A stretch of 40,249 nt of DNA from Deltaproteobacteria bacterium (GTDB lineage Bacteria > Desulfobacterota > Desulfomonilia > UBA1062), in the NCBI GenBank assembly GCA_021372395.1, contig JAJFUP010000045.1:1-40249 (forward strand), given 5' to 3'. Positions 25,059-26,855 of this stretch are shown here, piece by piece. How positions within the stretch are numbered: the stretch's first letter is position 1; each line of letters opens with the position of its first letter. The translations under genes and the position numbers were made by a program. The notes below the pieces were generated by a model. That model saw only the letters and a list, made by a program, of their open reading frames with translations, did not search any database and was not told where the DNA came from.

Positions 25059-25760
25059 TTACAGAGGTCTCTTCCACTTCGATTTTGCGGGCCTCTTCTT
25101 GAGCAGGACATAGAGGGCTCCGGTTCCCCCGTCGCAGGGGCGAGCGGAGCAGAAGGCGAGCACCAGGTGCGACAGTGTCCCGGTGGTGAGCCACTTTACA
25201 ACGCTCTCCTTGAGCACCGGGCCCACGTCGGATTTCAGTCCCCTGCCGTGGATGATGAGCAAGGTCCGGAAGTCCATGGCGTGGCTGTTCTGGATGAAGC
25301 TCGCCAGGACGGTCCTGGCCTCGTCACGGATATGTCCGTGAAGGTCGAGGTGGGCCTGAACCGTGAGTTCGCCGGATCTCAGTTTCCTTATAACACGCGG
25401 GTCCAGGTCGATCACATGGCCTTCCAGGTATTCGCCGGTAGTGGTGATGTCAAAGCGGGTTTTCCCGTTCACGAGTGCCTGGAGGGAATCGAGAACATCC
25501 TGGTCCTGCCTGCGCAGGCTCTCGCGCACCTGATGCACGACGGCGGCCCGGTCCAGGGGCTCGGGTGTCACCCTGTCGTTCGGCAGCTTTCTTACGCCAT
25601 CCATGGCTTGGATGAACAGGAACGCCTCATCCTCCGGGCTTTTGGCGCCTGTCTGCTGGCTCTCCTGGCCCTGAGGGAGAGGCTTCGGTTCCTTCTTCGG
25701 CGAAGGCACGCTCACCCCTTTGAGCTTGGAAAAAGGTGTGTTGAAGGGTTCATCTTCCAT
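25059..25760 (-). CDS. Smr-domain protein
   Basis: A 233-residue protein with a C-terminal Smr (small MutS-related) domain. L-D-L-H-G is at 138-142 and H-G-R-G at 171-174, the two motifs of Smr nucleases. The N-terminal 130 residues are Pro- and Lys-rich and then helical. Standalone Smr proteins are DNA or RNA endonucleases linked to repair or ribosome rescue; which applies here is open. The ATG has no visible Shine-Dalgarno. Only 16 bases separate it from a U9 terminator, itself preceded by a promoter on the same strand, so expression may depend on read-through (see the candidate RNA). Confidence 0.88.
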   Translation of the reverse strand: MEDEPFNTPFSKLKGVSVPSPKKEPKPLPQGQESQQTGAKSPEDEAFLFIQAMDGVRKLPNDRVTPEPLDRAAVVHQVRESLRRQDQDVLDSLQALVNGKTRFDITTTGEYLEGHVIDLDPRVIRKLRSGELTVQAHLDLHGHIRDEARTVLASFIQNSHAMDFRTLLIIHGRGLKSDVGPVLKESVVKWLTTGTLSHLVLAFCSARPCDGGTGALYVLLKKRPAKSKWKRPL

Positions 25761-25776
25761 TATGAATGCTTTTAGC

Positions 25777-25815
25777 AAAAAAAAAGGGCCCACTCAATAG
25801 AGGTGGTAGTGGGCC
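25777..25815 (-). terminator. strong intrinsic terminator in the leader of the Smr gene
   Basis: On the minus strand GGCCCACT (25815-25808) and AGTGGGCC (25794-25787) form a perfect 8-bp GC-rich stem with a 13-base loop, directly followed by C and nine T (25785-25777). This is the best intrinsic terminator in the window. It ends 16 bases before the Smr start codon and has no upstream gene on the same strand, since the LysR gene runs the other way. Confidence 0.85.
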
Positions 25816-25860
25816 TAAAAGGAGGTCTATAGCCCTTGAAAGAAATGCTATAGGCTGTGG
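25777..25860 (-). ncRNA. candidate small RNA or attenuator leader
   Basis: A minus-strand unit with its own promoter (TTGACA...TATATA), a predicted start near 25858, a first stem-loop (CTATAGC 25853-25847 with GCTATAG 25833-25827) and the U9 terminator hairpin, giving an RNA of about 80 bases. Between the hairpins lies CCTCCTTTT, complementary to a Shine-Dalgarno core. No start codon for a leader peptide is visible. It could be a trans-acting small RNA or an attenuator controlling read-through into the Smr gene. I matched it to no known riboswitch or RNA family. Confidence 0.5.
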
Positions 25861-25865
25861 CCGTT

Positions 25866-25893
25866 TATATAGGAGCTATTTAGGTGATGTCAA
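25866..25893 (-). promoter_or_regulatory. sigma-70 promoter of the candidate RNA/Smr transcript
   Basis: The minus strand has a perfect TTGACA (25893-25888), 16 bases, then TATATA (25871-25866), five of six; TATAAA at 18 bases is an alternative. It points towards the Smr gene and is the only promoter candidate for the two hairpins downstream. It lies about 55 bases from the LysR gene start on the other strand. Confidence 0.65.
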
Positions 25894-25946
25894 ATACAAT
25901 TATCTTATGGTAACGTTATACAAAAGTAAATAACTGTAGGAGAATC

Positions 25947-26855
25947 ATGAACATACATCAAGTACATATATTCAACATCGCTGCGAAAACCCTGAGCATC
26001 ACCCAGACCGCAAAAAAGATGCACCTGTCTCAACCGTCGGTAAGCATCCAGATAAAAGACCTGGAGGATGCCCTCCATGTGCGCCTCTTTGAGCGCATCA
26101 ACCGGAAGATCACCCTGACAGATGCGGGGAAGGTCTTTTTTGAGTACTCGGAGAAGCTCCTGAACCTGATCGAAGAGGTCAACGCCGTCATGAACGAGTT
26201 CAGCACCGGTGACGTGGGAAAGCTCGTGCTGGGTGCCTCCAGCACGGTGGGGATCTACGTGCTCCCCCGGCATCTCGGGGAGTTCAAGGATCTCTATCCC
26301 AAGGCCGAGATCGCGCTCATGGTACAGAACCGCCAGGAGGCCCTGGAACATTGCATCGCCGGCGAGATGGACTTTGCATTCATCCAGGACCCCCCCAAGC
26401 ACCCGGACCTTGTGTCGGAATTCTTCATGAAGGACGAACTGGTCGTCGTGTGCTCTCCCAAGCACCACTGGGCGAACAGGGAACACCTCACCATGAAGAT
26501 GCTCACCTCCGAGCCCGTTCCCATCATACTGCGGGAAAAGGGCTCCGGCACGAGGGACCTGATCGAGTACGTCCTCAAGAGATATGGGATCGAGCGCAAG
26601 GTCACCATGGAGCTGAGCTCCTCCGAGGGTATCAAGCGGGCAGTGGAGGCGAACCTCGGGGTAGCCGTGCTGTCCAGGAATGTGATCGGGGAAGAGGTCA
26701 AGAGCAGGAGACTCGTGTCCCTTCCCATCAGGGAGCTCAACACGAAGAGGGATTTCTACCTCGTCAGAAACAAAAAGCGCAGGTTCCTGCCGCTCATGAT
26801 GAAGTTCTACGACTTCATCCTCGCCAGGCGCGATCAGGGGGAAGGCTCGAAATAG
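25947..26855 (+). CDS. LysR-family transcription regulator
   Basis: A 302-residue regulator. The N-terminal winged helix-turn-helix (1-60) has S-I-T-Q-T-A-K-K-M-H-L-S-Q-P-S-V-S-I-Q-I, the classical LysR motif. The effector-binding fold follows (about 90-295), with G-A-S-S-T-V-G-I-Y-V-L-P and G-V-A-V-L-S-R-N, closest by eye to the CysL/CbbR-like group. AGGAG is five bases before ATG. It is followed after about 300 bases by the oxidoreductase operon on the same strand, whose upstream region has an inverted repeat suited to such a regulator. Regulation of that operon by a metabolite is inferred; the ligand is unknown. Confidence 0.9.
   Translation: MNIHQVHIFNIAAKTLSITQTAKKMHLSQPSVSIQIKDLEDALHVRLFERINRKITLTDAGKVFFEYSEKLLNLIEEVNAVMNEFSTGDVGKLVLGASSTVGIYVLPRHLGEFKDLYPKAEIALMVQNRQEALEHCIAGEMDFAFIQDPPKHPDLVSEFFMKDELVVVCSPKHHWANREHLTMKMLTSEPVPIILREKGSGTRDLIEYVLKRYGIERKVTMELSSSEGIKRAVEANLGVAVLSRNVIGEEVKSRRLVSLPIRELNTKRDFYLVRNKKRRFLPLMMKFYDFILARRDQGEGSK

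Follow-up and report, generated by a model that had tools for sequence, protein, structure and literature searches.

A conserved, predicted small RNA gene with candidate anti-Shine-Dalgarno segments between divergent LysR and Smr genes in the Desulfomonilia family UBA1062

To describe the region between a LysR-family regulator gene and a divergent gene for an Smr-domain protein, we analyzed a DNA stretch of 40,249 nucleotides, the whole of which we call the window. The locus contains the following features, listed with the basis for each:

25947-26855, plus strand: LysR-family regulator, candidate controller of the small RNA (sRNA) (PF00126 and PF03466)
25901-25932, no strand assigned: block separating the two divergent promoters, with consensus ATTTACTTTTCTTTAACCATATCATAAGATA; candidate operator for LysR, promoter of lysR, or both (conservation)
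25866-25893, minus strand: predicted sRNA promoter P1, TTGACA (25893-25888), N16, TATATA (25871-25866) (pattern match in the window and conservation)
25777-25860, minus strand: predicted sRNA of about 80 nt (fold; match to covariance model R1 at 25777-25855, 96.7 bits)
25827-25853, minus strand: 5' hairpin of 7 bp, CUAUAGC (25853-25847) with GCUAUAG (25833-25827) (sequence and fold)
25817-25834, minus strand: invariant core GGCUAUAGACCUCCUUUU, including the anti-Shine-Dalgarno (anti-SD) stretch ACCUCCUUUU at 25826-25817 (identity of GCUAUAGACCUCC in 24/24 copies)
25787-25815, minus strand: GC-rich terminator stem-loop of 8 bp, GGCCCACU (25815-25808) with AGUGGGCC (25794-25787) (sequence, fold, and compensatory changes)
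25777-25785, minus strand: terminator U9 tract (sequence; at least six U in all copies)
25769-25797, minus strand: candidate Smr promoter P2, TTGAGT (25797-25792), N17, TAAAAG (25774-25769), with TG (25777-25776) ahead of the -10 (conservation)
25059-25760, minus strand: Smr-domain protein, 233 aa (PF01713, 5e-22)

The promoter, 7-bp hairpin, anti-SD stretch, and terminator with nine U described in the original prediction all lie on the minus strand exactly where it had placed them. The U-tract indeed ends 16 nt ahead of the Smr ATG (25760), which has no Shine-Dalgarno sequence. TTGACA-N16-TATATA is the sole promoter match in the 40-kb window with at most one mismatch allowed (0.03 expected), and the stem plus U9 terminator pattern also matches once in the window (0 in 100 shuffles). 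A generic signal scanner misses both elements because it demands T at position 6 of the -10 and a loop of no more than 8 nt, which here is 13 nt. With its 5' end placed 6-8 nt past the P1 -10, the predicted transcript folds into exactly two hairpins, the 5' hairpin and the terminator (-21.9 kcal/mol, z -2.7), and an equally good fold occurs in one of 200 shuffles. ACCUCC of the linker is unpaired in this fold, and the terminator loop carries ACCACCUC, a second, conserved anti-SD-like segment. On the plus strand, no U-tract lies downstream of the hairpin, and a 55-aa ORF that overlaps the RNA gene (25766-25933) has no match in Pfam. The locus thus has what is generally looked for in a trans-encoded sRNA gene: an intergenic position, a promoter and an intrinsic terminator of its own, and no conserved ORF.

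No family in Rfam 15 attains its own gathering score with this sequence at gathering or permissive thresholds. The best sub-threshold matches, all to short sRNAs, are weak and fall far below the gathering scores: RF02837 (anti-hemB; 18.6 vs 49.5 bits), RF02278 (Betaproteobacteria_toxic_sRNA; 16.4 vs 50 bits), and RF00519 (suhB/mmgR; 16.0 vs 41 bits). A DNA search of 60 relatives gave strong matches confined to the host's own family, which we take to be UBA1062, assigned to the class Desulfomonilia (PMC13248872). A covariance model built from 22 copies (R1) detects the RNA in 21 of the 24 family genomes. It gave no hit in the 18 remaining genomes of the class, nor in any non-family genome of a set of 395 taken from the phylum, with part of these searches run under stricter filters. 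The Smr gene likewise has no match in the three family genomes without the RNA, so either an assembly gap or a joint loss is possible. The exact core pattern, searched against 84,980 GTDB species genomes, occurs at 19 loci, in Deltaproteobacteria or Thermodesulfobacteriota MAGs that include "Syntrophaceae bacterium UBA1062" and "UBA6087." One match on a viral contig was judged to be due to chance, as it falls within a coding region of a phage-like contig and has neither terminator nor hairpin.

The RNA is unevenly conserved along its length. GCUAUAGACCUCC is identical in all 24 copies. Among the 21 Smr-type copies, mean pairwise identity within P1 is 0.97 for TATTTGACA vs 0.39 for the spacer. 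In hairpin 1, the 5' arm reaches 0.77 and the loop 0.51, and GGCUAUAGACCUCC reaches 0.97. In the terminator, the values are 0.96 in the 5' arm and 0.91 in the loop segment ACCACCUC, and UUGAGUGGGCC has 1.00. The 5' hairpin is retained in 22 copies and is longer in some of them (L020, L084), at about 10-11 bp, while its 5' arm is missing in genomes G001 (L017) and G009 (L021). The 3' arm and anti-SD stretch are identical in these two, so the constraint on this part falls on its sequence and not just on a stem. Covariation across relatives, which had been proposed as a check on the two stems, is limited but points the expected way. The terminator stem shows two compensatory pair changes, both in paralogues (L054, L084), which exceeds all shuffles; with so little variation in the stems, RNAalifold reports almost no covariation. 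With a core this invariant, covariation support is thin, amounting to two pairs.

Three genes of the RNA lie away from the Smr locus. By covariance model, genome G010 has three copies and G013 has two, and the extra copies (G010:C5, G010:C4, G013:C323) are at unrelated loci with core and terminator kept. In the two whose flanks we compared (G010:C5 and G013:C323), neither Smr nor LysR is nearby. Conversely, G002, G009, and G012 have lost LysR yet keep the RNA and P1. The core is thus invariant where the neighboring genes or the 5' stem are gone. The paralogues without Smr, together with retention of the RNA after LysR loss, argue for an autonomous RNA gene and not an attenuator of Smr. Of the two options originally put forward, an independent RNA of about 80 nt is therefore the one borne out, with promoter, anti-SD core, and terminator conserved across the family. 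We are highly confident that the locus holds a real, conserved, and previously undescribed small RNA gene.

The LysR gene, which the original prediction had missed along with the conserved block beside it, P2, and the sibling RNAs described below, is divergent from the RNA in 17 of the 20 loci linked to Smr, at a constant spacing that puts its start 112-123 nt from the RNA core. Among NCBIfam models, the selenium-metabolism-associated LysR comes closest; the window protein scores 237 bits, below the cut-off of 250, and so we do not assign it to that group. Identity of the intervening block to its consensus is 0.67-0.94 in loci with LysR and falls to 0.24-0.58 in those without it. The T-N11-A box is the established binding pattern of LysR-family proteins, and several copies of the block contain TTA-N9-TAA, which is compatible with it. 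A LysR gene adjoining a conserved intervening region is the arrangement expected of a LysR-controlled sRNA. In enterobacteria, the sRNA genes of the GcvA-gcvB and OxyR-oxyS pairs are likewise divergent from the LysR-type genes that control them. The layout is the same as in the window, whereas the RNA sequences are unrelated and LysR control is here something we only infer. We give even chances to control of the sRNA by the LysR protein, which would then operate in most genomes of the family.

Downstream, the terminator appears to overlap a second promoter. TTGAGT is present in the terminator loop and 3' arm in 21/21 Smr-type copies, followed after 16-18 nt (17 in most) of stem and U-tract by a -10-like hexamer. 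An extended -10 (TGnTAnnnT) is indicated by correctly spaced TGnTA, which the script finds in 19 of 21 copies and reading by eye in 20 (G004 added), compared with a mean of 0.6 and a maximum of 4 in shuffle controls. The Smr ATG lies 6-8 nt past the P2 -10 in most genomes (8 nt in the window) and 10 nt past it in G012; distances in G019 and G010 were taken by eye, as the script picked an earlier ATG. At the place of TTGAGT, the three paralogues without Smr read ATCGAGT, CGTGAGT, and TTACAGC, and TGnTA is absent there. Since related genomes are non-independent samples and the window -10 (TAAAAG) is a weak match, as it is in a few relatives, we treat P2 as a candidate; nevertheless, this pattern of conservation makes it probable that P2 is the promoter of Smr within the 3' half of the terminator. 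As DNA, that half would supply the -35 of P2, and transcription would start at, or a few nt from, the Smr ATG. A nearly leaderless mRNA would account for the missing Shine-Dalgarno sequence, and Smr is probably translated from such an mRNA. In G008, the Smr ATG is not near the P2 -10: the locus (G008:C102, L020) has a strong P2 (TTGAGT-N17-TATACT), yet the Smr match begins about 200 nt further downstream than elsewhere.

The anti-SD linker is not confined to this RNA. A pattern of ACCUCCUYU followed by a U-tract has several matches in most family genomes, compared with about 0-1 for the reversed control in nearly all, and these matches form at least two further classes besides the window RNA. 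The second class combines ACCUCCUCUU with a GGAUGGCG...CGCCAUCC terminator and a conserved loop of the UCCUAUGCCCUAAC type. It occurs one to three times per genome in most family genomes (G000:C72 [L168], G000:C59 [L170], L171-L178, L180-L183, and L185-L187), including G003 and G017, both of which lack the window RNA. In the third class (G000:C252 [L169] and G002:C39 [L179]), ACCUCCUCUU is joined to a GGGGAAGC...GCUUCC terminator. The sister family f2 has an element of its own (L138-L140, L142-L154), CCCAUAUCCAUACCUCCUUUCACGCCC... followed by a terminator, with the conserved form CCCAUAUCCAUACCUCCUUU(C)ACGCCC(C/U)GAG ahead of the terminator. Nearly every f2 genome has it at a single locus. It lies upstream of a short-chain-dehydrogenase-like gene in the three loci checked. 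We had considered whether the sister-family matches were 3' ends of 16S rRNA and rejected this, as their flanks show a separate conserved element, which is likely another anti-SD sRNA. The module common to the sibling classes is the anti-SD linker (ACCUCCUYUU) immediately ahead of the terminator, with different stems. That only this module is kept while the rest differs suggests that the linker is the shared functional part.

Taken together, the locus is, in our judgment, probably an independent, trans-acting sRNA gene of about 80 nt that acts by Shine-Dalgarno pairing, likely with Hfq and LysR, and whose terminator doubles as P2. Transcription of the RNA, on the minus strand, would begin at its own sigma-70-type promoter and stop at the strong intrinsic terminator. 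The linker segment ACCUCCUUUU and the terminator-loop segment ACCACCUC would base-pair with the Shine-Dalgarno sites of target mRNAs, preventing their translation. ACCUCC, invariant in 24/24 copies and unpaired in the window fold, and the conserved loop ACCACCUC are what is expected of an anti-SD sRNA, and action through these two segments is the most economical reading of the locus and a likely one. Hfq, which would probably assist target pairing, is encoded in 21 of 25 genomes, including all 18 high-quality ones. The extension able to pair with the sRNA, AAAAGGAGGTC, precedes 33 start sites, vs 68 for AAAAGGAGGTG, the 16S-type extension; these counts hence give no sign of a large conserved target set. 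Starts of acyl-CoA synthetase-like and dehydrogenase-like genes recurred by eye and were dropped as candidate targets, since similar genes appear in the control set, which is twice as large. A search for long complementarity (AAAAGGAGGTCTATAG, at most two mismatches) returned mostly the RNA itself, the third G010 paralogue, or scattered sites, with no repeated gene.

The RNA might instead act in trans in another mode, as an RNA or protein sponge or independently of Hfq and LysR, with its anti-SD likeness incidental. The absence of target enrichment in the extended Shine-Dalgarno searches would fit this, as would persistence of the RNA after LysR loss and the conserved stretch GGCUAUAGACCUCCUUUUUGGGCCCACUACCACCUC, which exceeds the anti-SD and could be a protein-binding site. 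We nonetheless consider it improbable, because at least two further RNA classes of these genomes, plus one from the sister family, retain only ACCUCCUYUU and a terminator. Somewhat less likely again is the other option of the original prediction, an attenuator or riboswitch-like leader in which Smr is transcribed from P1 and its level depends on regulated read-through of the terminator. The terminator does end just ahead of the Smr ATG and adjoins Smr in most genomes, and some read-through is physically possible. However, the three paralogues lie apart from Smr, the 5' hairpin is absent in two genomes, Smr has its own P2 signature, no Rfam cis-element matches, and the folds show no competing antiterminator that would be mutually exclusive with the terminator. 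Finally, it is most improbable that the region is a mere DNA spacer parting divergent LysR and Smr units, its transcript incidental: the terminator does supply a candidate Smr promoter, but termination and promotion need neither an invariant unpaired linker nor the 3' arm of hairpin 1, both of which the paralogues elsewhere keep while losing TTGAGT.

For the trans-acting anti-SD sRNA, the closest known systems are AbcR1/LsrB and the alpha-r14 (NfeR1) sRNAs. AbcR1 and AbcR2 of Sinorhizobium meliloti are homologous, Hfq-associated trans-sRNAs with two anti-SD motifs that silence many mRNAs; their genes adjoin a LysR gene, whose product LsrB activates AbcR1 (PMC8844928), as the divergent LysR may do for the window RNA. 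The likeness lies in the two anti-SD segments, the LysR neighbor, and the homologous copies, without demonstrated sequence homology. The window RNA is shorter (about 80 nt vs 114-121 nt), differs in sequence and phylum, is divergent from its LysR gene, and has a terminator that carries a candidate promoter. In alpha-r14/NfeR1 and other CCUCCUCCC ("cuckoo") RNAs, ultraconserved anti-SD motifs are unpaired while stems differ, and NfeR1 is activated by a LysR regulator (PMC10746234, PMC3927594). NfeR1 has three hairpins, each with CCUCCUCCC, whereas the window RNA has two hairpins, a linker that carries ACCUCCUUUU and CCUCCUUUU, and a terminator loop with ACCACCUC, and so does not share the alpha-r14 architecture.

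These results add a previously undescribed conserved sRNA family and its siblings to a group of mostly uncultured anaerobes; for UBA1062, a link to syntrophic fatty-acid oxidation has been described (PMC13248872). In a collection of open-access papers that we searched, none combines Deltaproteobacteria, sRNA, Hfq, and anti-Shine-Dalgarno. Our analysis suggests that LysR-adjacent anti-SD sRNAs, known from rhizobia, arose or persist far beyond the Alphaproteobacteria. A terminator that doubles as promoter for a nearly leaderless gene would also be a compact and unusual arrangement. More speculatively, several sRNAs with unrelated stems and one anti-SD linker-plus-terminator module might form a general layer of translational control across the class. 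Termination of the window sRNA and initiation of Smr would share base pairs and might interfere, coupling sRNA output to production of leaderless Smr mRNA. We regard this extension as a tentative possibility; if true, the leaderless Smr mRNA would be beyond silencing by anti-SD sRNAs.

Some minor observations concern the GGAUGGCG-type loci. In G000 and G003, one subtype is followed about 0.2 kb downstream by a purM-like gene (MSLTYRDAGVDIDKQ). At L172 (G004:C61), two copies are 227 nt apart with Ns between them, which may be an assembly artefact. Upstream of these RNAs (e.g., L168, L173, and L175), a conserved TGCATCCTTT...GCATCAAAATAAT-like sequence replaces the TTGACA promoter and is perhaps a site for another sigma factor or a regulator.
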